Shown piece by piece: positions 9,686 to 63,979 of a DNA stretch of 64,000 bases. The notes under the pieces are model-generated. The model was given only the letters and a program-made list of their open reading frames with translations, searched no databases and was not told where the DNA came from. The DNA lies in assembly GCA_019634165.1 (NCBI GenBank), contig JAHQVT010000006.1, positions 744,001-808,000 of the forward strand, written 5' to 3'. Origin of the DNA: Rhodospirillales bacterium (GTDB lineage: Bacteria > Pseudomonadota > Alphaproteobacteria > Rhodospirillales > Thalassospiraceae). Position 1 is the first letter of the stretch. Each line of letters starts with the position of its first letter. The position numbers were made by a program, and so were the translations under genes.

Positions 9686-10813
9686 ATGGGACCAGGGGCT
9701 GATATGACCAACGACACACGGATTGGCGCAACGAATGCACCACTGGCCGATCAGGTAGTCCTGAACGCGCTTCCGTATGCGGCCGTAATTTGTGATCGCA
9801 ACGGGCTTGTTCTTCAATGCAACGAAGCCATTGCACGCATGATCGGTGTTTCCCGTGATCGCATGATGGGCCGCAAGGCCGGTTTCCTGTCCAAGGGTCT
9901 GATGAACGACATCGAAGATGTCTTTGCTTCGGGTCGATCTTGGCGGGGTGATATCATCCTTGTCGGGGCATCCAAGGAAAGTCACGTTTGCGATCTATCC
10001 ATCGCACCGCTTGAATATTTCCAAAACAATGAAACCCGCACCGCTGTTCTGATGACGCTTCTGGAAAATGATCGTCAACAACAGGCTGAGCGTTCCTTGA
10101 TGGCGCAGAACCGCAATCAAACAGATGCCAATGCGTCAAAATCAGACTTCATTGCCAATATGGGCCATGAATTGCGCACCCCGCTTAATGCGATTATTGG
10201 CAACTCGGAATTGATTGCCCAAGCTGTTCTTGGCGACATCCCCGACGGATACCGCGATTGCGGACGCGATGTGTATGAAGCCGGTAAGCACCTTCTGGAA
10301 CTGGTAAACAACGTTCTTGACGTGTCCAAGCTTTCAGCAGGCTCAATGACCCTTCAGCTTGACGACGTCGATCTTGGCTCTGTGATCCAAGAAGCAGGCA
10401 AACTTGTGCGCGATGACATTTCGCGCCGTCACCACAGTTTGAAATTCGATCTGCCATCTAAGAATGTTTCACTGCGCTGTGACAAGCTGAAGCTCAAACA
10501 AATCCTGATCAATATCCTAAGCAACGCGGCCAAATTCACCCCAGATGGCGGGCAAATCACAATCGGCCTGTCGATGAGTGATGATGACATTACCATTGCC
10601 GTTATAGATAACGGTGTCGGCATGAGCCCAAATGACATTCCCCGCGCCCTTGCACGGTTCTCGCAACTTCACCCCTCCGGGGTCAAGGAAAGTGCTGGGA
10701 CGGGCCTTGGCCTGCCATTGGCAAAGCTTCTTGTTGAACTTCATGGTGGACGGCTTAGCATCGAAAGCGACCTTGGCAAAGGCACAACGGTACGCATAAC
10801 CCTGCCACGCTAA
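9686..10813 (+). CDS. PAS-domain sensor histidine kinase (likely soluble)
   Basis: PAS-like N-terminus, H-box FIANMGHELRTPLNAI, N-box NILSNAAKF, DNGVGM, GTGLGLPL; no transmembrane segment seen. Confidence 0.93.
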   Translation: MGPGADMTNDTRIGATNAPLADQVVLNALPYAAVICDRNGLVLQCNEAIARMIGVSRDRMMGRKAGFLSKGLMNDIEDVFASGRSWRGDIILVGASKESHVCDLSIAPLEYFQNNETRTAVLMTLLENDRQQQAERSLMAQNRNQTDANASKSDFIANMGHELRTPLNAIIGNSELIAQAVLGDIPDGYRDCGRDVYEAGKHLLELVNNVLDVSKLSAGSMTLQLDDVDLGSVIQEAGKLVRDDISRRHHSLKFDLPSKNVSLRCDKLKLKQILINILSNAAKFTPDGGQITIGLSMSDDDITIAVIDNGVGMSPNDIPRALARFSQLHPSGVKESAGTGLGLPLAKLLVELHGGRLSIESDLGKGTTVRITLPR

Positions 10814-51024: not shown

Positions 51025-51969
51025 TCATGGATAAACGAAATAGCCATCAGGGGCATTTTCCAACCTTGCGGTCAGGTTATCGATAAAGAAACGTTCTGCC
51101 CGGCTAAGCGACATGCGCGGGTTGGTCACAAGGTAAATGTCAATCGCTGGCGGGTCGACATAAGGCGGGAGACGCCATAACTGGCCGCGTTCCGTGGCAT
51201 TTTGCACCACATGGATCGGCAGTGGCCCAATCCCAAGCCCGGCATTGATCAAACGCCTTACTTCTTCAAGATGCGGACTCACAGCAACCACTTTGCCCTT
51301 CAGGCCTTGTTGTGCGCGTAAAATGGCCACCGGGGCAAGTGCATCGGAAAGCTGATCGGTCGAAAAGGATACGAACGCTTCGCTTCTAAGGTCCGCCAAT
51401 GTCAGGTCTTTTTGCCCAAACAAATGATGACTTGGCCCACAGAAGAACCCGAAATGTTCGCGGTACAGACGGCGATATTCCAATCGGGGATGCTTTTCAC
51501 GCACCAGACAAATGCCAAAACTGGCCTGCTGGGATAGAACCTGATCGGTCACATGACCAGATGTTGCGACATTGATTTCATAGGTCACTTCGGGATGAAG
51601 ACGGTTAAATTCAAACAAACCATCATCAAGCGGCGGGAAAACAACGTGACTGGCCAACCACAAATGCAAATGCCCGGTCAATTGACTGCCGCTATCGGAC
51701 ATCACATCAGACAACCGCCCGATGGCCCCACAGATTTCCCGACATTCGTGATAAAGCGCTTGGCCCTGCTCGGTTACTTCAAACCGGCCACGTTCACGGT
51801 CAATCAGGCGCGCACCGATCTGATCTTCAAGCCGCTTCAAGGCGTTACTGACACTGGGCTGGCGCAGTAACAGCCGGTTGGCCGCCCCGGTGATCGATCG
51901 TTCTTCAACGATCACGGTAAAGGTATGCAACAGGTTCCAATCAAACTGGCGCCGCATCAATTCATTCAT
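51025..51969 (-). CDS. LysR-family transcriptional regulator
   Basis: FDWNLLHTFTVIVEERSITGAANRLLLRQPSVSNALKRLEDQIGARLIDRERGRFEVTEQG; divergent from ABC operon. Confidence 0.95.
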   Translation of the reverse strand: MNELMRRQFDWNLLHTFTVIVEERSITGAANRLLLRQPSVSNALKRLEDQIGARLIDRERGRFEVTEQGQALYHECREICGAIGRLSDVMSDSGSQLTGHLHLWLASHVVFPPLDDGLFEFNRLHPEVTYEINVATSGHVTDQVLSQQASFGICLVREKHPRLEYRRLYREHFGFFCGPSHHLFGQKDLTLADLRSEAFVSFSTDQLSDALAPVAILRAQQGLKGKVVAVSPHLEEVRRLINAGLGIGPLPIHVVQNATERGQLWRLPPYVDPPAIDIYLVTNPRMSLSRAERFFIDNLTARLENAPDGYFVYP

Positions 51970-52001
51970 CGAAATCCCCCACCGAAACCCATCAAAAATC
52001 C

Positions 52002-52026
52002 ATCCCATAGCAAACGGCTATGGGAT
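52002..52026. promoter_or_regulatory. Candidate LysR box between the regulator and the ABC operon
   Basis: ATCCCATAG-N7-CTATGGGAT perfect 9-bp inverted repeat containing T-N11-A. Confidence 0.75.
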
Positions 52027-52144
52027 CTATTCTACTTATCTATTTGCGCTATGTGCAAGTCTGAGGTGGAATAGGGACAAGATAAATTTCAACGGCCAAA
52101 TAACCGCGCACGGCATCGCCGGAGCATAATAACGGGAGGCATAA

Positions 52145-53017
52145 ATGGCCGCAGATATCGCTGGGGAGCGTCGCGCTCCTTGGATGCTGCTATCGCCGTC
52201 ACTGGCAACAGTCGGGCTGTTACTGATCATTCCGATGATGTTCATCATCGTGTATTCGTTCTGGTTGCGCACCGCGACCGGGGCTGATCAAGTCGGCTTT
52301 TATCTTGATAACTGGATTGAAGTTCTGGGCGACCGGTTCTATCGCGATATCCTGTTTCAAACCTTTGCCATTGCCTTCTATACCACCATTATTTGCGCTT
52401 TCGTCGGCTATATCCCTGCCTATTTCGTTGCCAACACCCCGATGAAATCCAAGGCATTTTTGCTTTTGATGCTGATGCTGCCATTCTGGATCAGCTACAT
52501 CATCCGCACCATGTCTTGGATTAATATTCTGGGCACATCGGGTGCGCTCAATACCATGATGCTGTCAATTGGCATTATCGATGAGCCGATCCAGATGCTC
52601 TATAACCAGACCACCGTGATCCTTGGTCTGGTGCATTATCTTCTGCCCTTCATGATCCTGAATGTCTATGTCAGCCTTGATGGCATTGACAAAAACCTGA
52701 CCGAAGCTGCCCAAAGCCTTGGCTGCACAGGTTGGCAGGCCTTCCGCGAAGTCACCCTGCCCCTGTCATTTCCGGGATTGGCCGCAGGATCGCTTCTTTG
52801 TTTTGTCTTGGCTGCTGGCACCTATATCACCCCGATTGTCCTGGGTGGGCCGCGTGATGCGATGTTTGCCAATCTTGTGTTTGAAGCCATCGTCACCCAA
52901 TTGAACTGGCCGCTTGGCTCTGCTCTTTCGCTTGTCCTCCTCGCCCTGCTGGGCGCGCTGGTCGTCGTCTATACCCGTTACCTTGGCGTCGATCAGATCG
53001 CCAAGAGTTTCAAATAA
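52145..53017 (+). CDS. ABC transporter permease, spermidine/putrescine (PotB) type
   Basis: EAAQSLGCTGWQAFREVTLPLSFPGLAAGSLLCFVLAAGTYITPIVLGGP. Confidence 0.94.
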   Translation: MAADIAGERRAPWMLLSPSLATVGLLLIIPMMFIIVYSFWLRTATGADQVGFYLDNWIEVLGDRFYRDILFQTFAIAFYTTIICAFVGYIPAYFVANTPMKSKAFLLLMLMLPFWISYIIRTMSWINILGTSGALNTMMLSIGIIDEPIQMLYNQTTVILGLVHYLLPFMILNVYVSLDGIDKNLTEAAQSLGCTGWQAFREVTLPLSFPGLAAGSLLCFVLAAGTYITPIVLGGPRDAMFANLVFEAIVTQLNWPLGSALSLVLLALLGALVVVYTRYLGVDQIAKSFK

Positions 53018-53028
53018 GGAAGGGTTTT

Positions 53029-53850
53029 ATGATGATGTCCGGTTGGTCAATGATCCGCATTGCAACGATCCTTGTTTACCTGTTCCTGTTTGCGCCGGTC
53101 GCGGTTGTGATCCTGCTTGCCTTTAACGCCAATCAGTTTGGCGGCTTCCCGATCGAAGGTTTCTCGCTGCGTTGGTTTGAAGCGCTTTGGAACAATGATG
53201 CGATTGTACGGGCTTTCAAAACTTCCCTGTTGCTGGGGCTTTTGACCAGTGCGGTTTCAACCACACTTGGCACCATGGCCGCCCTTGCCATGGTCAGATA
53301 CGACTTTCCGGGGAAACGGACCATTTCGACCCTATTGGTTGCGCCAATCCTGATCCCGGAAGTCGTTTTGGCTGTGGCACTCCTTTTATTCCTGCAGTTC
53401 CTTGCCATGCCCAAAAGCTTTGGTCTGCTGTTGATGGGCCATGTTGTCTTTACCCTGCCCTTTGTGGTGCTGGTGGTTCAGGCACGGCTTGTCTCCATCC
53501 GCCGTGACGTCGAAGAAGCTGCCATGAGTTTGGGTGCAACCCCGATCCAGACATTTTTCCAAATCACCCTGCCCTTGATGCTGCCTGCGGTGATGGCCGG
53601 AATGCTGTTTTCCTTCACAATTTCATTTGATGACATTACCGGCACTCTGTTCTGGAAACCGGGGGGGGTCGAAACCGTCCCAACCCAGATTTTCGCCATG
53701 CTGCGCAATTCCATCAGCCCGGAAATCAATGCGCTGGGCGCTGTCATGGTGATCTTTACAATCGCACTGCCATTGATTGCGGCATCGGTTGCGCGGGTTG
53801 TTTCCATCCAAAAACTGCGCGCATCAAACCGGGCAGAAAAGCCCGGCTGA
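53029..53850 (+). CDS. ABC transporter permease, spermidine/putrescine (PotC) type
   Basis: EEAAMSLGATPIQTFFQITLPLMLPAVMAGMLFSFTISFDDITGTLFW. Confidence 0.94.
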   Translation: MMMSGWSMIRIATILVYLFLFAPVAVVILLAFNANQFGGFPIEGFSLRWFEALWNNDAIVRAFKTSLLLGLLTSAVSTTLGTMAALAMVRYDFPGKRTISTLLVAPILIPEVVLAVALLLFLQFLAMPKSFGLLLMGHVVFTLPFVVLVVQARLVSIRRDVEEAAMSLGATPIQTFFQITLPLMLPAVMAGMLFSFTISFDDITGTLFWKPGGVETVPTQIFAMLRNSISPEINALGAVMVIFTIALPLIAASVARVVSIQKLRASNRAEKPG

Positions 53851-53961
53851 ACATGTTTCGAATATCGCGGGAAACCGCCAAAACCAAAAACAATATCGCT
53901 TAACCAACGACCAAGAACAAAACCGATTAACGGATTAAATTGTTTTATCAGGAGGCCTTAA

Positions 53962-55116
53962 ATGGACGATACGAAACGCTATGAACGCCTGCTAAATCGC
54001 TATCGCGATGGCGATATCAACCGCCGTACTTTTCTAACCGCACTTGGTGCTGCCGGTGTTGTTGCCGGTGTCACGGGTGGCCCGATGGGTATGCTTGCCC
54101 GCAAAGCACAGGCAGCAACCCCAGAACAGGTTCGTTTTGATGGTTGGGGCGGTGTTGTCTCCGAAGCATTTGAAAAACATGCTTTTGCGCCTTACACCAA
54201 GAAAACCGGCATTGATGTCATTTCCGGTACGTTCGGCGGTGCGGATGAATATATCGCGCGCGTAAAAGCCGGTCAGCCCGGTGAATTCAACCTCGCCCAT
54301 CTGTCTGGCGTATTTGACTATGCGCGCTATCACGGGTTGGAACTGACATCGGAAATCAACGAAGCCAATATCCCGAACCTGAGTAACGTAATTTCCAGCC
54401 TGATCGAGCCGCTGCGCAAAATCACCGGCGGGACGATTTCGGCAGTACCCTATGACTATGGCACGACGGGCATTGCCTATAACCGCAAACATATCAGTGA
54501 CGAAGAAGCCAAGGCCAAAGGTGCGAAACTGATGGTCGATGAAGCCTATAAAGGCAAGATCGGCGGTTGGGGTGAATGGAAAACCCGTATCTGGTACGGC
54601 GCACTGCAGTCCGATCAGGATCCGAACAACATCAAAGACATTGATGCTGTTTGGGACATGATCCGTTCGCACCGTGATCTGGCCCTGAAATATTGGAGTT
54701 CAGGGGCCGAATTGATGAGCCTTCTGGCAGAAGAAGAAATCTATGTCACCGAAGGTTGGTCTGGTCGCATCAAAGCGCTTCAAGATCAGGGCCATGACAT
54801 TGGTTATCTTGATCCGGCTGGTGGTCTTGGTTGGCAGGAATGCCTGTTTGTCCTGCGTGGCAGCCCGATGGCAGCTTGTGAAGAACTTCTGAACTTCATG
54901 TTGGAACCAGAAGTCGCAATTGCTGTTGCCGAAGGCCAAAGCTATCCGCCGGCACTTGACCCGAAAAAGGTCGATCTTGGCAAGATCATCCCGACCCTTC
55001 CGGCATTTGATCCGTCCGGAACACTTTCGTCACTTAGCTTCTTCGATCCGGCATACTGGAACGAAAACGAAGCAGATTGGTCGAAAACCTTCTCTCGTGT
55101 GCAGCGCGGCTACTAA
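53962..55116 (+). CDS. ABC transporter substrate-binding protein, polyamine type, Tat-type signal
   Basis: NRRTFLTALGAAGVVAG signal; PotD-like FDGWGGVVSEAFEKHAFAPYTKKTGIDV, ISAVPYDYGTTGIAYN. Confidence 0.92.
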   Translation: MDDTKRYERLLNRYRDGDINRRTFLTALGAAGVVAGVTGGPMGMLARKAQAATPEQVRFDGWGGVVSEAFEKHAFAPYTKKTGIDVISGTFGGADEYIARVKAGQPGEFNLAHLSGVFDYARYHGLELTSEINEANIPNLSNVISSLIEPLRKITGGTISAVPYDYGTTGIAYNRKHISDEEAKAKGAKLMVDEAYKGKIGGWGEWKTRIWYGALQSDQDPNNIKDIDAVWDMIRSHRDLALKYWSSGAELMSLLAEEEIYVTEGWSGRIKALQDQGHDIGYLDPAGGLGWQECLFVLRGSPMAACEELLNFMLEPEVAIAVAEGQSYPPALDPKKVDLGKIIPTLPAFDPSGTLSSLSFFDPAYWNENEADWSKTFSRVQRGY

Positions 55117-55138
55117 GCCCTGCTTGTTCACCTGAACC

Positions 55139-55173
55139 GGTGCCCTGGTCTTCGCACAACCGACCAGGGCACC
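55139..55173 (+). terminator. Intra-operon stem-loop after the substrate-binding protein gene
   Basis: ggtgccctggtc...gaccagggcacc, 12-bp perfect arms. Confidence 0.75.
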
Positions 55174-55224
55174 CCTGCCTTCTTTCTTTAGACAGGCACA
55201 TTCATTCTGACAGGGTATTTAACA

Positions 55225-56322
55225 ATGGCAGACGCCGAAAACGCCGTTGAACTGCAAAATGTCGTAAAGCGTTACGGGGAATTTACCGCGGTTAAACGCA
55301 TGGATTTGACCGTTCCTGACAACAGCTTTGTGACTTTCCTTGGTCCGTCGGGCTGTGGCAAGACGACGACATTGCGCATGATTGCCGGTTTGACCGACAT
55401 TACCGAAGGCGATTTGATGATCCGGGGCAAACGGGTCAACAGCCTGCCGATCCACAAGCGCAATCTTGGGCTTGTGTTTCAGAACTATGCCCTGTTCCCG
55501 CATAAAACGATTTTTGACAATATCGCCTTTGGCCTGAAATATCGCAAAGTGTCAAAATCCGACATCGCGCAAAAGGTCAATCAGGCACTTGAACTTGTTC
55601 AATTACCCCATGTCGCTGGCCGCTATCCCAATCAGTTATCCGGCGGGCAACAGCAGCGTATCGCGCTGGCCCGTGCGATTGTGATCGAACCAGATGTTTT
55701 GCTGCTTGATGAACCGTTATCCGCCCTTGATGCCAACTTGCGCGAAGAAATGCGCGTCGAGCTTAAACGCATCCAACGCGAACTGGGCATTGCAACCGTG
55801 TTCGTCACCCATGACCAATCCGAAGCATTGGCCATGTCTGACAAGCTGGTTGTGATGAATAACGGCTTTGTCGAACAAGAAGGCGCGCCGCAAGATGTTT
55901 ATAACAATCCGGCATCTGCCTTTGTTGCCGACTTCCTTGGCCATTCCAATATCATCCCGGCAGAACTCGGCAGCCCCGATGCCGCATTCACCAATGTAAA
56001 CCTTAATAGCGGTGAAACGCTTTTGACCACGGATGAACAAACGGCCAAGGCCAATGGATCAAAAGACGTGCGTGCGGTTATTCGTGCTGAAAAAATTGAT
56101 CTATCGGATCAAAACGGCGCAGCCAATGGCGTGATTAGCATTCCGGGTAAAATCAAAACGGTTGATTATCTGGGGCAGCAGGCCCGTTATTTTGTCGAGG
56201 CCAATGGCCGCGACTGGCAAGTTATCAATCCGATTGATGCCCGCCCCCATCAGGAAGGTGCCGATATCTTTATGCATATCGCTGCCCGCAATTGTGTGTT
56301 GTTGCCCGGTCACCAAGACTGA
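55225..56322 (+). CDS. ABC transporter ATP-binding protein, PotA type
   Basis: GPSGCGKTTTLRMIAGL, LSGGQQQRIALARAIVIEPDVLLLDEPLSALDANLRE. Confidence 0.96.
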   Translation: MADAENAVELQNVVKRYGEFTAVKRMDLTVPDNSFVTFLGPSGCGKTTTLRMIAGLTDITEGDLMIRGKRVNSLPIHKRNLGLVFQNYALFPHKTIFDNIAFGLKYRKVSKSDIAQKVNQALELVQLPHVAGRYPNQLSGGQQQRIALARAIVIEPDVLLLDEPLSALDANLREEMRVELKRIQRELGIATVFVTHDQSEALAMSDKLVVMNNGFVEQEGAPQDVYNNPASAFVADFLGHSNIIPAELGSPDAAFTNVNLNSGETLLTTDEQTAKANGSKDVRAVIRAEKIDLSDQNGAANGVISIPGKIKTVDYLGQQARYFVEANGRDWQVINPIDARPHQEGADIFMHIAARNCVLLPGHQD

Positions 56323-56367
56323 TCATAAGAACAAAGTCCACCAGACCGGTTCAGGAGAGCCACCAGA

Positions 56368-57744
56368 ATGACGCATAATGATAAAAACCCGGTCGGTCAT
56401 AACCGGGAGTCCCGCCTTTTTTACCAAAGTCGATCACGTCGCCCCCTGATCGAACGGGCACAAGGTGTCTATATGTGGGACGTCGATGGCAAACGCTATA
56501 TCGATGCATCCAGCGGCGCCATGGTCAGCAATATCGGTCACAGCGACCCGCGCGTGATCGCCGCAATGAATGCCCAGCTTGAAAAAGCCAGCTTCGCCTA
56601 TCGCCTGCATTTTGAAAACGACGCCGCCGAAAACCTGGCATGGCGGTTGGCCGAACGTGCACCGGGTGATCTGGAACGGGTATTCTTTGTTTCTGGCGGG
56701 TCCGAAGCGGTTGAAAGCTGCATCAAGCTTGCCCGGCAATATGCATTGGCCAAAGGTCAAGCCCAACGCACCAAAGTCATTTCACGGTTCCCAAGTTACC
56801 ATGGGTCCACCCTTGGTGCACTTGCACTGACCGGCTACACACCGATGCACGCGCCTTTTGCACCAATGATGGTCGATCAACCCAAAATTCCTGCCCCAAC
56901 TTGTTATCTGGATCGCGATGATCTGACCGATCATGATCGTGGCATCAAATATGCCAACATGTTAGAGGCCGAAATCATTAAACAGGGTCCTGAAACCGTC
57001 CTTGGTTTCATCATGGAACCGGTTGGCGGGGCTGCAACCGGTGCACTTGTAGCACCCGATAGCTATTATGGCCGCATTCGTGAAATTTGTGATCAATACG
57101 GCATTCTTCTGATCTATGACGAGGTCATGACAGGTGCCGGACGTACAGGCACCTATTTCGCGGCTGAACATTGGGGCATTACGCCCGATATTCTCGCCGT
57201 ATCAAAAGGCCTTGCTGCGGGTTACGCGCCACTGGGTGCGATGATTGCACCGGATCGGATCGTTGGCCCGGTTCTTGATCACGGCGGCTTTATTCACGGC
57301 TATACCTATGCCGGCAATCCGCTTGCCTGTGCGGCGGGCAATGCCGTGCTTGATGTCATCGAAGAAGATGACTTGCTTGAAAATGCAACAACCAGCGGTG
57401 CGGCATTAAAGGCCGAGCTTGGCAAACTTGCAGATGATTTCACCATGATTGGCGATGTCCGAGGCAAGGGACTTTTATTGGCGATCGAGCTGGTCAAAGA
57501 TCGTAAAACCATGACCCCGCTTGATCCCAAACATATGGCGGCCGCACGTTTGGTCGACATTGCCTATGACCTTGGCCTGATCATTTATTGGCGCAGAACG
57601 CGCGGCGGGTATCGTGGTGATCACGTTATGGTCTGCCCGCCGATGACGATCAAACCCGAACAGTTTGACGATATTCTGGTGCCGCTGCGGTCCGCATTGA
57701 CCGAACTTCAAGATGAACTCGTTATCGCCGGAGCCTTCTCATGA
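56368..57744 (+). CDS. Class III (omega) aminotransferase
   Basis: SGGSEAVESCIKLARQYA, IYDEVMTGAGRTGTYFAAEHWGITPDILAVSKGLAAGYAPLGAMI. Confidence 0.94.
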   Translation: MTHNDKNPVGHNRESRLFYQSRSRRPLIERAQGVYMWDVDGKRYIDASSGAMVSNIGHSDPRVIAAMNAQLEKASFAYRLHFENDAAENLAWRLAERAPGDLERVFFVSGGSEAVESCIKLARQYALAKGQAQRTKVISRFPSYHGSTLGALALTGYTPMHAPFAPMMVDQPKIPAPTCYLDRDDLTDHDRGIKYANMLEAEIIKQGPETVLGFIMEPVGGAATGALVAPDSYYGRIREICDQYGILLIYDEVMTGAGRTGTYFAAEHWGITPDILAVSKGLAAGYAPLGAMIAPDRIVGPVLDHGGFIHGYTYAGNPLACAAGNAVLDVIEEDDLLENATTSGAALKAELGKLADDFTMIGDVRGKGLLLAIELVKDRKTMTPLDPKHMAAARLVDIAYDLGLIIYWRRTRGGYRGDHVMVCPPMTIKPEQFDDILVPLRSALTELQDELVIAGAFS

Positions 57745-58670
57745 GCCGGAAAGTTATTATTACCTGCGCAATCACCGGATCGGTACACACCCCATCGATG
57801 AGCCCGCACTTGCCCGTCACCCCCGATGAAATTACCCGCCAAGCAATTGATGCCGCCAATGCAGGCGCTTCAATCTTGCATCTGCATGCACGTGATCCGG
57901 AAACCGGCTTCCCAAGCCCCGATCCTGATCTGTTCATGGAATTCTTGCCCAAAATCAAGGCCGCCACAGATGCCGTGATCAACATATCCACCGGCGGCGG
58001 CATGAATATGGATGTTAGTGACCGTATCCGTGCGGCCCGTGAAGCCGCCCCGGAAATGGCGTCATTGAATATGGGCACGATGAATTTCGGTCTGTTCCCG
58101 GCCTTGGCGACAAAGCGCGAATGGAAACATGACTGGGAACCAAAGTTCCTTGAAGACAGCCGCGACTTTGTTTTCAAAAACACGTTTTCCGATATCGAAA
58201 CCATTCTGGCTGACCTTGGCGATGCCAATGGCACCCGGTTTGAATTTGAATGTTATGACGTCGGCCATCTTTATACGCTGGCACATTTTGTTGATCGTGG
58301 CCTGATTAAGGGACCGGTTTTCATTCAGTTTGTGTTGGGTATTTTGGGTGGCATTGGCGCTGACCCTGATAACCTTGCCCATCTAAAATCCACGGCCGAC
58401 AAACTGTTTGGCGATCAATATCAATTCTCGGTCCTTGGTGCCGGACGCCACCAGATGCCACTTGCCACGATGGCGGCATCAATGGGCGGAAATGTCCGCG
58501 TCGGGTTGGAAGACAACCTGTATCTGCGCAAGGGCGAACTGGCCCCTGATAATGCATCACAAGTGCGCAAAATCCGCGAAGTCCTTGATGGCCTGTCACT
58601 TGAAATCGCAACACCGGACGAAGCACGCGCGCAACTTGGGTTGAAAGGCGGCGATCAGGTCGCCTTCTAA
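57741..58670 (+). CDS. BKACE-family beta-keto acid cleavage enzyme (DUF849)
   Basis: VIITCAITGSVHTPSMSPHLPVTPDEITRQAIDAANAGASILHLHARDPETG; zinc-binding HLHAR. Confidence 0.93.
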   Translation: MSRKVIITCAITGSVHTPSMSPHLPVTPDEITRQAIDAANAGASILHLHARDPETGFPSPDPDLFMEFLPKIKAATDAVINISTGGGMNMDVSDRIRAAREAAPEMASLNMGTMNFGLFPALATKREWKHDWEPKFLEDSRDFVFKNTFSDIETILADLGDANGTRFEFECYDVGHLYTLAHFVDRGLIKGPVFIQFVLGILGGIGADPDNLAHLKSTADKLFGDQYQFSVLGAGRHQMPLATMAASMGGNVRVGLEDNLYLRKGELAPDNASQVRKIREVLDGLSLEIATPDEARAQLGLKGGDQVAF

Positions 58671-58737
58671 CCCGCCTGATGACGACACCATAAACGCCAC
58701 CACCGTTACGACACGCACAAAGTGAAAGGCGGCAGCC

Positions 58738-59802
58738 ATGATGCATGCCTATTTCTCAGATGATCAGCTTCGCCACCACGGCAAAACATTCATTGTCGCG
58801 GGCGAGAAAAAGCCAATCCCGGAAGTACCCGAACGCGCCGAAATCCTAAGCGGTGCGGTTGCGCGTCTGGGTCTTGATCTGCATGCCCCAAAGGATGCGG
58901 GCATGGACCCGATTGCCGCCATTCACGACGGGCGCTATCTAAACTTTTTGCAGACAATTTATCCCGAATGGCAGGCGGCTGGCGGGTCAGAACTGGTTAT
59001 TCCCAATATCCATCCGTTTGATCGTAATGGCCCCTATCCGCGCCATCATGTTGGCAAGGCTGGTTTTCATTTGGGCGATACATCCTGTCCGGTTTCCGCA
59101 ACCACATGGCATTCTGCCTATGCCAGTGCGCAAACCGCAATTTCGGCCACCCGCCATGTGCGCGATGGCGGTGCCAACAGCGCCTATGCCCTATGCCGCC
59201 CGCCGGGGCATCACGCCAGCACCAACATCGCCGGTGGGTTTTGTTATTTGAACAACAGTGCGATTGCCGCACAAGAACTGCGCACGAAATATGACCGGGT
59301 CGCGATCCTTGATGTTGATCTTCATCACGGCAACGGAACCCAGCATATTTTCTATGACCGATCTGATGTCATGACCCTATCCATCCATGCTGATCCGCAT
59401 GATTTTTATCCATTCTTTTGGGGCCATGCGGAAGAAATTGGCGAGGATGCTGGCATTGGCTTTAACCATAATGCGCCCCTGCCCCTTGGCAGCGGTGATG
59501 TGATTTTCCTTGATGCACTTGACCGTGCTTTGGCAAAGATTGATGATTTTGGGGCCGACGCCATCGTTGTCGCACTTGGCCTTGATGCGTCGCGCGATGA
59601 TCCATTTGGGGGTTTAACCGTTAGCCCGGATGGTTTTGCCCAAATCGGTGAAAAAATTGGCACCCTTACCTGCCCAACCGTGCTAGTGCAGGAAGGTGGC
59701 TATGTCAGTAACACACTGGCCGAAAACCTTTATCAGTTCATCAGCGCGTTTAGCGCCACCAAAGACAAAAACAACGTCACGATATCAGAAGGCCCCAAAT
59801 GA
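58738..59802 (+). CDS. Histone deacetylase-family / acetylpolyamine amidohydrolase-like
   Basis: CRPPGHHAS, GGFCYLNNSAIAAQ, ILDVDLHHGNGTQHIFY. Confidence 0.93.
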   Translation: MMHAYFSDDQLRHHGKTFIVAGEKKPIPEVPERAEILSGAVARLGLDLHAPKDAGMDPIAAIHDGRYLNFLQTIYPEWQAAGGSELVIPNIHPFDRNGPYPRHHVGKAGFHLGDTSCPVSATTWHSAYASAQTAISATRHVRDGGANSAYALCRPPGHHASTNIAGGFCYLNNSAIAAQELRTKYDRVAILDVDLHHGNGTQHIFYDRSDVMTLSIHADPHDFYPFFWGHAEEIGEDAGIGFNHNAPLPLGSGDVIFLDALDRALAKIDDFGADAIVVALGLDASRDDPFGGLTVSPDGFAQIGEKIGTLTCPTVLVQEGGYVSNTLAENLYQFISAFSATKDKNNVTISEGPK

Positions 59803-60950
59803 CACATTCAGACATCTTGATTATTGGCGGCGGCATTGCCGGAATGTCCGCAGCATTCTTTTTGGCCAAGGCGGGTAAATCCGTCACCGTTCTCGAACGC
59901 GAAGATCAGCCGGGCTATCACAGCACCGGTCGGTCCGCCGCGCTCTATAGCGAGACGTATGGCCCAAAGATCATCCGCAAGATGTCGACCGCCAGCCGCG
60001 AATTCCTTTTATCTCCGCCAGATGGTTTTACCGAAAACCCAATCCTGACACCGCGCGGCATCATCATGACCGCGGCACCGGGCGAAGAAGCCAAACTTGA
60101 CGCCATCTTGACCGAAGGCCGTGTCAATGGCGCCAATTTTGTCGAACTTAGCCCCGCCCAACTCAAAGAAATGATCCCGGTGATCAATACCGACAATGTT
60201 GTTGGTGCGGCACATGAACCTGATGCCATGGACATGGATGTCCATGCCCTTCATTGGGGGTTTATCCGCCAGTTCAAATCAATGGGTGGAACCCTTGTCA
60301 CCAAGGCAAATGTTCATACCATCACCAAAACCGACGGCGCATGGGACGTTACCCTTGCCAATGGCGACCATCATCGCGGCGATATCATTGTTAATGCCGC
60401 TGGTGCATGGGTTGATGACATCGCCACCAAAGCAGGCGTTGCGCCGCTTGGCATCGTTCCTAAACGCCGGACCGCAGTCATGGTTGATTTGCCAGCAGGC
60501 ATAAATGCCCATGGCTGGCCATTGGTCGCAACCATCGATGAAACGCTTTATTTCAAGGAAGATGCCGGGCGTTTGCTGGTATCCCCAGCCGATACCACGC
60601 CGACCGAACCACACGACGTCCAACCCGAAGAACTTGATATCGCGATTACGATTGATCGCCTGATGACCTACACCAACATCGAAGTACGCCGCCCCGGTGA
60701 ATCATGGGCAGGCTTGCGCAGTTTCTTTGCCGATGGTGACCCAGTTTCCGACTTTGACCCAAGAGATAGCAGTTTTTACTGGCTTGCTGGTCAGGGCGGA
60801 TATGGCATTCAAACAGCACCTGCCATGGGTGAATATGCCGCTAGCATCCTGTGTGGCAATGGCGTCCCGGCCCATATGCAAAAACTTGGCGTTGCCAAAG
60901 ATGCCTTATCAGCAGCACGTCCCAGCCTTGCAAAAGGCAAGTCATCATAG
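59799..60950 (+). CDS. FAD-dependent D-amino acid dehydrogenase, resembles D-arginine dehydrogenase DauA
   Basis: VLEREDQPGYHSTGRSAALYSETYG, VNAAGAWVDDIA, PLGIVPKRRTAV, HDVQPEELDIA, WAGLRSFFADGD, GQGGYGIQTAPAMGE. Confidence 0.85.
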   Translation: MTHSDILIIGGGIAGMSAAFFLAKAGKSVTVLEREDQPGYHSTGRSAALYSETYGPKIIRKMSTASREFLLSPPDGFTENPILTPRGIIMTAAPGEEAKLDAILTEGRVNGANFVELSPAQLKEMIPVINTDNVVGAAHEPDAMDMDVHALHWGFIRQFKSMGGTLVTKANVHTITKTDGAWDVTLANGDHHRGDIIVNAAGAWVDDIATKAGVAPLGIVPKRRTAVMVDLPAGINAHGWPLVATIDETLYFKEDAGRLLVSPADTTPTEPHDVQPEELDIAITIDRLMTYTNIEVRRPGESWAGLRSFFADGDPVSDFDPRDSSFYWLAGQGGYGIQTAPAMGEYAASILCGNGVPAHMQKLGVAKDALSAARPSLAKGKSS

Positions 60951-60982
60951 GGCATTGATGCTTGCCCGAACGGAGAACCCCA

Positions 60983-62269
60983 ATGACCAGTTTTGACCGC
61001 AACGCATTGCGCAAAGCCGTTGCAAACCGCAAAGCCAAGGCGATTGATGATCTTTGCGCGCTGGTACGCCATGACAGTCTTCTGGGCAATGAGGCACCTG
61101 CACAAAACTGGATCGCCGATCAATTTTCGCAAATGGGTCTTGATGTTGAACGGGTGGCGATTGATATCGACGCCCTTCGCGATCAGCCGGGCTTTTCCCC
61201 GCCGGTAATTGATGGCTATGACGGGCGTGAAAACATCGTTGGTTTGCATCGCCCCAAAAACCCGACTGGCCGCAGCCTGATCTTGAATGGTCATATGGAT
61301 GTTGTGCCAACCGGCCCGGTTGATAAATGGCGTCGCGGCCCATTTGATCCGCATGTCGACGGTGACTGGATTTATGGCCGCGGTGCTGGTGATATGAAGG
61401 CCGGCATCATTGCCTATTGCCATGCACTGCAGGCATTACATGATATTGGATTGGAACCAGCCGCCCCGGTCACCTTGCAATCGGTTGTCGAAGAAGAATG
61501 CACTGGCAATGGTGCGCTGGCTTGCCTTCATGCGGGGTATAAGGCCGATTGCGCAATCATTCCCGAACCGTTTGACCAAACCCTTATGACTGCACAGCTT
61601 GGCGTAATGTGGTTTCAAATTCATGTATCAGGAAGCCCCGCCCATGTTCTTGATACCTCTGCTGGCAGCAACGCCATTGAAGCTGCCTTTGGTTTCTTTG
61701 AAACCCTTAAGGAAGTCGAAGAAATCTGGAACCACCCCACCCATCGCCATGCGGCCTATGGGGCGCATGTTCACCCGGTGAACTTCAATCTTGGCAAGAT
61801 TGAAGGCGGTGAATGGGCATCAACCGTTCCACCGGTTTGTCATGCCGATATCCGCGTTGGGTTCTATCCGGGCATGGAACTTGAAAATGTTCGTGAAACG
61901 ATTGATGCGGTTAGACAAAGTGCGATTGACAACCACCCGGCTTGCAAAGGTGCCTCTATTGACGTCACCTATCACGGTTTTCAGGCCGAAGGGTGCGAGA
62001 TGGATGTTAACCACCCGATGATGTCAATGATCGGCGACATTCATCACGAAGTCACCGGGAATGCCATTAAAAACTATGCCTCGACCGCGACAACCGATGC
62101 CCGGTTCTTCCAGATTTACGGCAATATCCCGGCAACATGTTATGGCCCAAAAGCCGAGGCCATTCACGGCATTGATGAACGGGTTTCGATCGCATCCATG
62201 ATGGAAGTAACAGAAGTACTTGCGCTGTTTATTGCCGACTGGTGCGGCGTGCAAAAGCGTGGTAGCTAA
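60983..62269 (+). CDS. M20-family deacylase (ArgE/DapE type)
   Basis: LILNGHMDVVPTGPVDKWRRGPFDP, GRGAGDMKAGI, SVVEEECTGNGALAC. Confidence 0.93.
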   Translation: MTSFDRNALRKAVANRKAKAIDDLCALVRHDSLLGNEAPAQNWIADQFSQMGLDVERVAIDIDALRDQPGFSPPVIDGYDGRENIVGLHRPKNPTGRSLILNGHMDVVPTGPVDKWRRGPFDPHVDGDWIYGRGAGDMKAGIIAYCHALQALHDIGLEPAAPVTLQSVVEEECTGNGALACLHAGYKADCAIIPEPFDQTLMTAQLGVMWFQIHVSGSPAHVLDTSAGSNAIEAAFGFFETLKEVEEIWNHPTHRHAAYGAHVHPVNFNLGKIEGGEWASTVPPVCHADIRVGFYPGMELENVRETIDAVRQSAIDNHPACKGASIDVTYHGFQAEGCEMDVNHPMMSMIGDIHHEVTGNAIKNYASTATTDARFFQIYGNIPATCYGPKAEAIHGIDERVSIASMMEVTEVLALFIADWCGVQKRGS

Positions 62270-62317
62270 TTCACATCATTGAATAAATTATCCGATACAT
62301 ATTCCAAGGAGAATTTC

Positions 62318-62665
62318 ATGAGCATTCAACGTCTTCACACCGGCCCGCGTATGAGCCAAGCCGTTGTCCATGGCGACACCATCTATCTTGCCGGTCAGGT
62401 TGGCGAACCAACCAGCGACGTCACCAACCAGACCAAAGAATGCCTGGCAAAGATTGACTCGCTTCTGGCTGAATGTGGTTCGTCTAAGGAAAACATCCTC
62501 TCAACCACCATCTGGCTGGCTGACATGAAAGATTTCGCTGCAATGAACGCAGTTTGGGATGCATGGGTACCGCAGGGTCACACCCCGGGCCGTGCATGTG
62601 GCGAAGCAAAGCTTGCCACCCCCGATTACCTTGTTGAATTCATCGTGATTGCGGCCAAGTCATAA
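62318..62665 (+). CDS. RidA (YjgF/YER057c/UK114) family protein
   Basis: MSQAVVHGDTIYLAGQVG...WVPQGHTPGRACGEAKLATPDYLVEFIVIA. Confidence 0.92.
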   Translation: MSIQRLHTGPRMSQAVVHGDTIYLAGQVGEPTSDVTNQTKECLAKIDSLLAECGSSKENILSTTIWLADMKDFAAMNAVWDAWVPQGHTPGRACGEAKLATPDYLVEFIVIAAKS

Positions 62666-62684
62666 TATCGGCAGCATAAAAATC

Positions 62685-62728
62685 AAACGCCCGGCAGGAT
62701 GATTGATTCCTGCCGGGCGTTTTTTTTG
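62685..62728 (+). terminator. Terminator of the LysR-linked catabolic operon
   Basis: aacgcccggcagga...tcctgccgggcgtttttttt. Confidence 0.92.
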
Positions 62729-62746: not shown

Positions 62747-63979
62747 TCAGGCAGGTTTTTCTGATGTCACGATAAGTGATGTTGCCTCAAGGGTTCTATG
62801 AACCGGGCATTTATCGGCAATCTCAAGCAATCTGGCGCGGGTCTGCGCATCCAGATCGCCAATAAAAGTCAGCTTGCGTTCAAACCGGTCAATTTTTCCA
62901 CTTTTTGGCAGACGATCTTTTGCGCATTCGGTGCAGTCATCGGAATGCACCTTGTCATGTCGTATTTCGGCCCGGACGGCTTCTAGTGGAATGTTTTTAT
63001 GATCGGCATACATCCGCACCGTCATTACCGTGCAACTGCCAAGGGCTGCTGATAAGAACCCATACGGTGATGGTCCGCTATCAAATCCACCAACGGATTC
63101 TGGTTCATCTGCCAACATCCGATGACGCCCTGTCATCACCATCGACTGAAATTTTCCCAGCCCGGTTTCGCGCACCATCACACCTTCGACGATCTCAATC
63201 GGTGTTTCAGCAGATTCAGGCAAATAATGCTTGGCCCATGCGGCAATAACCGATGCGGCATAGCTTGCATCCGCAGGATCACGCAGCAAATGATCGGCCC
63301 GATCAAGCGACACAAAGCTTTTGGGATGTTTTGCTGCCTCAAAGATACGACCGGCGTTTTCAATACCGACAGTTTCATCCAAAGGGGCATGCATAATCAG
63401 AAGCGCCTTTTTCATATGCCCAACAGAATGGGCAAGATCATGTTTGGCCAGATCATCAACAAATTGGCGTTTAATGACAAATGGCCGCCCACCAAGGGAG
63501 ACTTCTGTTTCGCCGGTCTCTTTGATGGTTGCAAGATGTTCGGCGAAATTGTGGGTTACATGGTCAATGTCGGCGGGTGCACCAATGGTCGCAACGGCGG
63601 TTGCTTCCTGTATCCGTTCGGCAACCGCAAGAACTGCTGCACCGCCAAGTGAATGACCAATCAATATTTTGGGCGCTTCATATTCGTCGCGCAAAAAATC
63701 GGCTGCGCGTTCCAGATCGTCCAGATTGGACGTAAAGTTGGTTGACGCAAAATCCCCGCCCGACCCGCCAAGCCCGGTAAAGTCAAACCGCAACACGCCG
63801 ATCCCTTCCATGGTCAAGGATTGCGCAATTTTGCGCGATGCCGTCAGATCCTTGCTGCAGGTAAAACAATGGGCAAACAGCGCATATGCCTTGACCGGTC
63901 CTTCTGGCAAATCAAGACGTGCGGCCAGTTTGGCACCATGGGCACCGTCAAACGTAAGTTTCATTGGTTTTCCGGGCAT
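62747..63979 (-). CDS. Bifunctional alpha/beta hydrolase - OsmC family protein
   Basis: N-terminal hydrolase with GHSLGGAAVLAVAE nucleophile elbow; C-terminal OsmC: GPSPYGFLSAALGSCTVMTVRMYAD, CPVHRTLE. Confidence 0.92.
   Translation of the reverse strand: MPGKPMKLTFDGAHGAKLAARLDLPEGPVKAYALFAHCFTCSKDLTASRKIAQSLTMEGIGVLRFDFTGLGGSGGDFASTNFTSNLDDLERAADFLRDEYEAPKILIGHSLGGAAVLAVAERIQEATAVATIGAPADIDHVTHNFAEHLATIKETGETEVSLGGRPFVIKRQFVDDLAKHDLAHSVGHMKKALLIMHAPLDETVGIENAGRIFEAAKHPKSFVSLDRADHLLRDPADASYAASVIAAWAKHYLPESAETPIEIVEGVMVRETGLGKFQSMVMTGRHRMLADEPESVGGFDSGPSPYGFLSAALGSCTVMTVRMYADHKNIPLEAVRAEIRHDKVHSDDCTECAKDRLPKSGKIDRFERKLTFIGDLDAQTRARLLEIADKCPVHRTLEATSLIVTSEKPA

Follow-up and report, generated by a model that had tools for sequence, protein, structure and literature searches.

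What compound could be the substrate of an operon that combines a polyamine-type transporter with a transaminase, an enzyme that cleaves beta-keto acids, and two amide hydrolases? This question is raised by a locus of a Rhodospirillales bacterium of the Thalassospiraceae (assembly GCA_019634165.1), located between positions 51025 and 62728 of the window, i.e., the whole stretch of 64,000 nucleotides that was analysed (contig JAHQVT010000006.1, positions 744,001 to 808,000). A LysR regulator gene on the opposite strand is followed there by ten co-directional genes (52145 to 62665), and not by nine as counted in a first-pass annotation made from the sequence alone, whose open reading frames, coordinates, overlaps, and terminator were all confirmed. 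Our tentative answer, which we hold to be the best available rather than a probable one, is that this is a LysR-controlled operon for the uptake and aerobic catabolism of a small beta-amino acid whose distal amine is acylated, probably N-acetylated. N6-acetyl-beta-lysine (6-acetamido-3-aminohexanoate) is the best candidate, and an N-acetyl-beta-lysine-like compound, already guessed in the annotation, is still the best fit. The substrate class as such is moderately supported.

The operon is a real, conserved catabolic unit that brings together known kinds of enzymes in a new combination. The window itself is from Thalassospira, a marine bacterium. Full synteny was found in Thalassospira species, most genes being 82-96% identical, and the complete set, including the LysR, M20, and RidA genes, is present in a distant alphaproteobacterium (L033) with identities of 56-87%. 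A divergent LysR gene followed by two permeases (PermB and PermC), a substrate-binding protein (SBP), an ATPase, an aminotransferase (AT), a beta-keto acid cleavage enzyme (BKACE), an HDAC-fold amidohydrolase, and a flavin D-amino acid dehydrogenase-like protein (DAO), with or without RidA, was found in this order in Phaeobacter, Mameliella, Sedimentitalea, Rhodobium, and others. The arrangement is not due to chance, as the genes keep their order and strand well outside the genus. It is true that some loci lack single genes or have others in their place, as would be expected of a chance assembly of unrelated functions, but the core order repeats in many families and has a dedicated BKACE clade, and this explanation, already refuted by the conserved synteny, is hardly credible. 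No description of this gene cluster, and no described pathway with the same gene set, was found in the literature searched, in agreement with the view of the annotation that the pathway may be undescribed.

The AT-BKACE-HDAC core is more widespread than the whole operon; it occurs with other transporters and often with a GNAT acetyltransferase gene between BKACE and HDAC. In Rhizobiales, the core AT-BKACE-GNAT-HDAC is accompanied by a family-3 amino acid transporter, often plus a DMFA2_C protein. The gene of this N,N-dimethylformamidase beta-like protein lies directly 5' of the aminotransferase gene in L153 (5482-7140) and in about 30 Rhizobiales loci. The loci named here were gathered with an HDAC query, and the sampling is thus biased toward HDAC; a bias-free check was provided by an aminotransferase search in a sample of 372 alphaproteobacterial genomes, the neighbour positions being compared by hand. 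BKACE adjoins 15 of the 19 AT orthologues of at least 60% identity found there, and HDAC adjoins nine. Both AT and BKACE are near the HDAC-subfamily gene in 57 of the 98 loci gathered, and a GNAT is near HDAC in 42 of these 57; the co-conservation check proposed with the annotation has thus given a positive answer. RidA is near HDAC in 18 of the 98 loci, and M20 in five, L033 in addition. The dehydrogenase and RidA are frequent yet variable partners, and M20, which the annotation had taken as a member of the pathway, keeps a place in it only as an accessory, peripheral component. A locus with the transporter, BKACE, and DAO, without AT, was also found (L044).

The AT gene (56368..57744, + strand) overlaps the BKACE gene (57741..58670, +) by exactly 4 nt (57741-57744). 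The AT scores 349 bits with PF00202 and 473 with the PRK07483 model, whose cut-off is 485, and is proposed to be a beta-amino acid transaminase. A class III aminotransferase next to a BKACE is what one would expect for a route that converts a beta-amino acid into a beta-keto acid and this into acetoacetate and an acyl-CoA; the idea that the one feeds the other within one conserved catabolic unit, put forward in the annotation, has been upheld. The BKACE exceeds the curated cut-offs of PF05853 (369 vs 24.8 bits) and NF053538 (525 vs 430) and is below that of the Kce model NF052387 (249, cut-off 382). It keeps the catalytic and Zn residues H47, H49, E257, S83, E170, R253, and D258, which correspond to Kce H46, H48, E230, S82, E143, R226, and D231. 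The lysine-fermentation Kce (2Y7D) also has the same fold, catalysis, and aminated beta-keto acid logic, but the Kce residue that binds the free 5-amino group of the substrate, E14 (a Trp in the triacetate enzyme; PMC10470551), corresponds to V15 in the window BKACE, the operon clade having V or I there. With V15 in place of the amine-binding E14, the operon BKACE would be expected to act on a beta-keto acid that lacks a free amine at that point.

In a tree of 107 sequences, made by a quick method with SH-aLRT as the only support, the BKACEs associated with AT or HDAC form one clade (SH-aLRT 98) of 69 rows, 59 of them with AT and HDAC, six with AT, three with HDAC, and one other. BKACE15 from Paracoccus denitrificans (8RIO), 3E49, 3E02, and 33 of the 34 copies from other contexts are placed outside, as is the BKACE of L078, an HDAC neighbour. 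BKACE15, a 3,5-dioxohexanoate-type enzyme that accepts neutral 3-oxo acids (PMC11961710), resembles the operon enzyme in its Pfam family, catalytic residues, and hydrophobic residue at the Kce E14 position, but the operon clade is separate and has the typical residues F197 and F229 where BKACE15 has T and W. Since BKACE15 is outside the operon clade, the name of NF053538, "3,5-dioxohexanoate:acetyl-CoA acetone transferase", is no evidence for that substrate. The carnitine catabolism modules (carnitine dehydrogenase, BKACE, and thioesterase) likewise use BKACE to cleave an N-containing beta-keto acid coming from an upstream step; unlike them, the operon would obtain its keto acid from an aminotransferase and have a deacetylase acting afterwards.

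These data also bear on a simpler pathway for beta-amino acids that are short and neutral: a compound such as N-acetyl-beta-alanine would be deacylated and then transaminated, and from the resulting short 3-oxo acid, malonate semialdehyde or another, BKACE would yield acetoacetate and formyl-CoA or another acyl-CoA. The tunnel of HDAC enzymes typically fits longer acetamidoalkyl chains, and a GNAT partner makes little sense with a mono-amine. On the other hand, BKACE15 cleaves malonate semialdehyde, a beta-alanine transaminase and BKACE function together in E. coli (PMC11961710), and the NCBIfam model whose cut-off the window BKACE exceeds bears the name of this class of substrates. BKACE15 is placed outside the operon clade, and we consider this alternative quite unlikely.

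Two further BKACE genes are present in the same genome. The first belongs to a second aminotransferase-BKACE pair (L198, 5901-8107; G000:C2) that also overlaps by 4 nt and adjoins a TAXI/TRAP-like transporter; in this enzyme, the Kce E14 position is taken by R, and equivalents of E143 and D231 are missing. The nearest PDB structure to the other (L002; G000:C12:2446-3324) is 3c6c.

The HDAC-fold amidohydrolase (58738..59802, +; PF00850) is proposed to be an acetamidoacyl deacetylase. Its catalytic centre (H158, H159, D194, H196, D283, and Y322) is intact in all copies, and the solved structures closest to it are those of acetylpolyamine amidohydrolases (M. ramosa 3q9b, Pseudomonas 9gkz, and 3men), with which it shares the HDAC fold, Zn ligands, tandem His, and catalytic Tyr. 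In contrast to them, the window enzyme has lost both polyamine-recognising acids of the M. ramosa enzyme (MrApaH), E17 being replaced by F18 and E106 by V105. E17 is F in 60 of the 64 operon HDACs, E106 is V or another uncharged residue, Y168 is F, and F225 is Y, whereas E17 and Y168 are kept in 14 classical sequences, one of which is the other HDAC encoded in this genome (L185). E106 of MrApaH forms a salt bridge to the polyamine, but acetylpolyamines are still substrates of PsApaH, where the residue is H106, so that E106 alone is not absolute (PMC11532494). The natural reading of these replacements is that the substrate would be an acetamidoalkyl compound whose far end is no amine, e.g., 4-acetamidobutyrate or its CoA ester. 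A record titled Bacillus subtilis (L093; JAHREI010000002.1) holds a proteobacterial HDAC of the operon subfamily whose identity to the window equals that of Pseudochrobactrum L095, and it is probably mislabelled or contaminated.

The transporter comprises a PotB-like permease (PermB, 52145..53017, +; NF007044, 197 bits, curated cut-off 348), a PotC-like permease (PermC, 53029..53850, +; NF007047, 209 bits, curated cut-off 326), a PotD-type SBP with a Tat signal (53962..55116, +; PF13416 and TIGR01409), and, by profile matches, a PotA/PhnT2-like ATPase (55225..56322, +). All four proteins are below the NCBIfam equivalog cut-offs, the values for PotD being 38/582 and for PotA 358/482. In the SBP, mapped by a 43-bit alignment to PotD, Trp and acid residues are kept at the PotD amine site (W266, W291, E293, and E205), and Arg209 and Arg269, at the positions of PotD E171 and S232, are invariant in 30 of 30 sequences, which points to a ligand carrying both an amine and a carboxylate. 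In a fold search, the structure predicted for the SBP (mean pLDDT 76.7) resembled receptors of PotD/PotF, GABA, and opine type equally well, which confirms this receptor group and does not fix the ligand. The residues thus argue against a free amine at three sites, i.e., V15 of the BKACE, the lost acids of the HDAC, and the two invariant arginines gained by the SBP. A relative of the SBP and transporter lies beside a class III aminotransferase (39%) on pTiS4 (L080, 9890-15325), which indicates a similar uptake module on Ti plasmids.

The PotABCD-like transporter and the nearest PDB relatives of the HDAC would both suit an acetylpolyamine operon, in which PotABCD imports N-acetylputrescine or N-acetylspermidine, HDAC deacetylates it, and the aminotransferase yields an aminoaldehyde. 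Nevertheless, E17 and E106 are gone from this HDAC subfamily while L185 keeps the E17 equivalent, the SBP site has its invariant Arg, and a dedicated BKACE would have no role. We thus regard this scheme as very unlikely, and the acylated polyamine that the annotation had offered as a substrate is disfavoured by the loss of the recognition acids.

Returning to the beta-amino acid with an acylated distal amine, the reactions, their order, and the substrate are those that we infer from the gene set, its conservation, the active-site states, and the dedicated BKACE clade. The PotD-type transporter would take up an N6-acetyl-beta-lysine-like compound, and the class III aminotransferase would strip its beta-amino group, yielding 6-acetamido-3-oxohexanoate; in parallel, the DauA-like flavoenzyme and RidA might oxidatively deaminate the substrate itself, the opposite enantiomer, or one portion of the molecule. 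BKACE and acetyl-CoA would split the beta-keto acid into acetoacetate and 4-acetamidobutyryl-CoA, from which the HDAC-like enzyme would take off the acetyl group, the CoA being freed by the same enzyme or by a thioesterase; genes of the acyl-CoA thioesterase family are found near some loci. Finally, 4-aminobutyrate would enter the succinate semialdehyde route, for which the genome encodes a succinate semialdehyde dehydrogenase scoring over the cut-off and GABA-transaminase-like proteins. M20 would be a second deacylase or would free the substrate from a conjugate. Deacetylation is more likely to occur after the BKACE cleavage, and not before transamination as the annotation had it. The GNAT near HDAC suggests that bacteria importing the free compound begin by acetylating its distal amine in vivo and release this amine at the end, i.e., protect and deprotect it. 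The identification of this GNAT as AblB (beta-lysine N-acetyltransferase) found no support, no AblB model being among the NCBIfam matches listed for five such GNATs.

The Barker laboratory reportedly described between 1979 and 1981 a degradation of L-beta-lysine in Pseudomonas with an N6-acetyl-beta-lysine transaminase (EC 2.6.1.65), the cleavage of 3-keto-6-acetamidohexanoate, and a 4-acetamidobutyryl-CoA deacetylase (EC 3.5.1.51). The route is said to run through N6-acetyl-beta-lysine, 3-keto-6-acetamidohexanoate, 4-acetamidobutyryl-CoA, and 4-aminobutyrate, and would thus share the protection and deprotection of the distal amine. Nothing on this pathway, and no gene assigned to it, was found in the literature searched. 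A plausible gene for each step exists here (GNAT in the relatives, class III AT, BKACE, and deacetylase), but the window cluster lacks the GNAT and has DAO, M20, and RidA in addition. It is possible, if doubtful, that the AT-BKACE-(GNAT)-HDAC core is the N6-acetyl-beta-lysine degradation itself, encoding EC 2.6.1.65, the cleavage of 6-acetamido-3-oxohexanoate, and EC 3.5.1.51, with an archaeal osmolyte as food for environmental bacteria and an HDAC fold acting on a CoA ester. N-acetyl-beta-lysine is a compatible solute of methanogens (PMC1224877).

Several observations weigh against the acetylated beta-amino acid. As some loci (L066 and L071) have no genes of the set other than those for the transporter, AT, and BKACE, not every member of the BKACE clade can depend on acetylation. 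With TIGR02429, the model for the catabolic acetoacetate CoA-transferase, the score is below the cut-off, and the residue mapping of the SBP rests on the 43-bit alignment already mentioned. The conserved type of GNAT is absent from the window cluster, and lysine 2,3-aminomutase (TIGR00238), a further difference from the Kce system, was not found in this genome and was found in only five of 16 relatives. A local source of beta-lysine through this aminomutase was thus dropped, and a ready-acetylated compound would need to be imported. In addition, in four roseobacter-type loci (L076, L128, L139, and L148) an M20D amidohydrolase and an alanine-racemase-like protein occupy the DAO position, which suggests that the substrate has an alpha-amino acid portion too.

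This last point leads to the three distal genes of the operon. DAO (59799..60950, +; PF01266; nearest PDB 3nyc and 6p9d) overlaps the HDAC gene by exactly 4 nt (59799-59802). The D-arginine dehydrogenase DauA from P. aeruginosa (3nyc) is its best PDB match, with equivalents of R222 and R305 (the carboxylate Arg pair), Y53, Y249, and E246 kept; however, H48 is replaced by L and the operon has no DauB partner. E87 of this enzyme (PaDADH), which deals with the cationic side chain, is I88 in the window and E in 12 of 31 relatives. Its loss was considered an additional pointer to a neutral substrate but dropped, because the position varies among relatives and gives no clear signal. The M20 deacylase (60980..62269, +) belongs to the ArgE/DapE subfamily (NF005306, 528 bits, cut-off 376) and starts at an ATG, with an in-frame TTG ahead of it at 60962; RidA, an imine/enamine deaminase (62318..62665, +; PF01042), also has an ATG start, preceded by an in-frame TTG at 62279. 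As M20 replaces HDAC beside AT-BKACE in L037, L038, and L046, it may be an alternative deacetylase, and DAO and RidA together might provide another way of deaminating.

A second Thalassospira species (G267; locus L171, G267:C6:123000-142000) has a clean deletion of 8.1 kb, from window position 51147, in LysR, to 59259, in HDAC, that fuses the 3' portions of LysR and HDAC (junction near 10193-10195, with a 3-nt overlap), so that the first half of the operon is dispensable as a unit. DAO, M20, and RidA are the genes left intact, and they are contiguous in the window. Together with the M20D and racemase-like proteins at the DAO place, these facts would agree with a two-part conjugate, a (D-)amino acid amide-linked to a beta-amino acid, that M20 splits and whose alpha half is taken by DAO and RidA (or by a racemase in the relatives) and the rest by AT, BKACE, and HDAC. 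Most loci, however, keep DAO and RidA without M20, and we know of no fitting conjugate; such a substrate is unlikely, yet it is a serious rival.

If the uptake and catabolism of an N-acetylated beta-amino acid is true, a function would be given to widespread and mostly misannotated genes ("3-keto-5-aminohexanoate cleavage protein" and "histone deacetylase family protein"), and an HDAC-fold subfamily directed neither at polyamines nor at histones would be defined. An old enzymatic pathway, for which no gene was found in the literature searched, would become testable with a handful of proteins, and a fate would be suggested for N-acetyl-beta-lysine, the methanogen solute, in marine and soil bacteria.

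The family assignments of all the enzymes, judged by profile matches, are firm, and those of the annotation (PF00202, PF05853, PF00850, PF01266, PF01546, PF01042, LysR, and a PotB/PotC/PotD-like transporter) were borne out. The LysR-type regulator (51025..52008, -; PF00126 and PF03466) is kept divergent beside the operon in relatives, and its true start is probably an internal ATG (MNELMRRQFDWNLL...). A candidate LysR operator, the perfect palindrome ATCCCATAGC-N5-GCTATGGGAT (52002..52026), lies in the region of the divergent promoters. It is complete in L081, and its core CATAGC-N5-GCTATG is present in L082 and L044, most other loci having neither. No Rfam element was found in the operon by an Rfam search.

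The operon ends at an intrinsic terminator (62685..62722) with a 15-bp stem followed by TTTTT, by far the strongest of the region. It works on both strands and so also serves the convergent gene 62747-63979 (-), whose product is a fusion of an alpha/beta hydrolase and an OsmC domain. A neighbouring operon (L209, 3338-9072) starts shortly after the end of the window, about 1.4 kb beyond this hydrolase/OsmC gene, and has genes for a thioesterase similar to the C-terminal portion of carnitine dehydrogenase and for proteins that, judged by eye, are ornithine-cyclodeaminase-like, D-threonine-aldolase-like, and MlrC-like. The thioesterase (L209, 3338-3835) was dropped as a part of the operon studied here: it overlaps the ornithine-cyclodeaminase-like gene and belongs to another operon.

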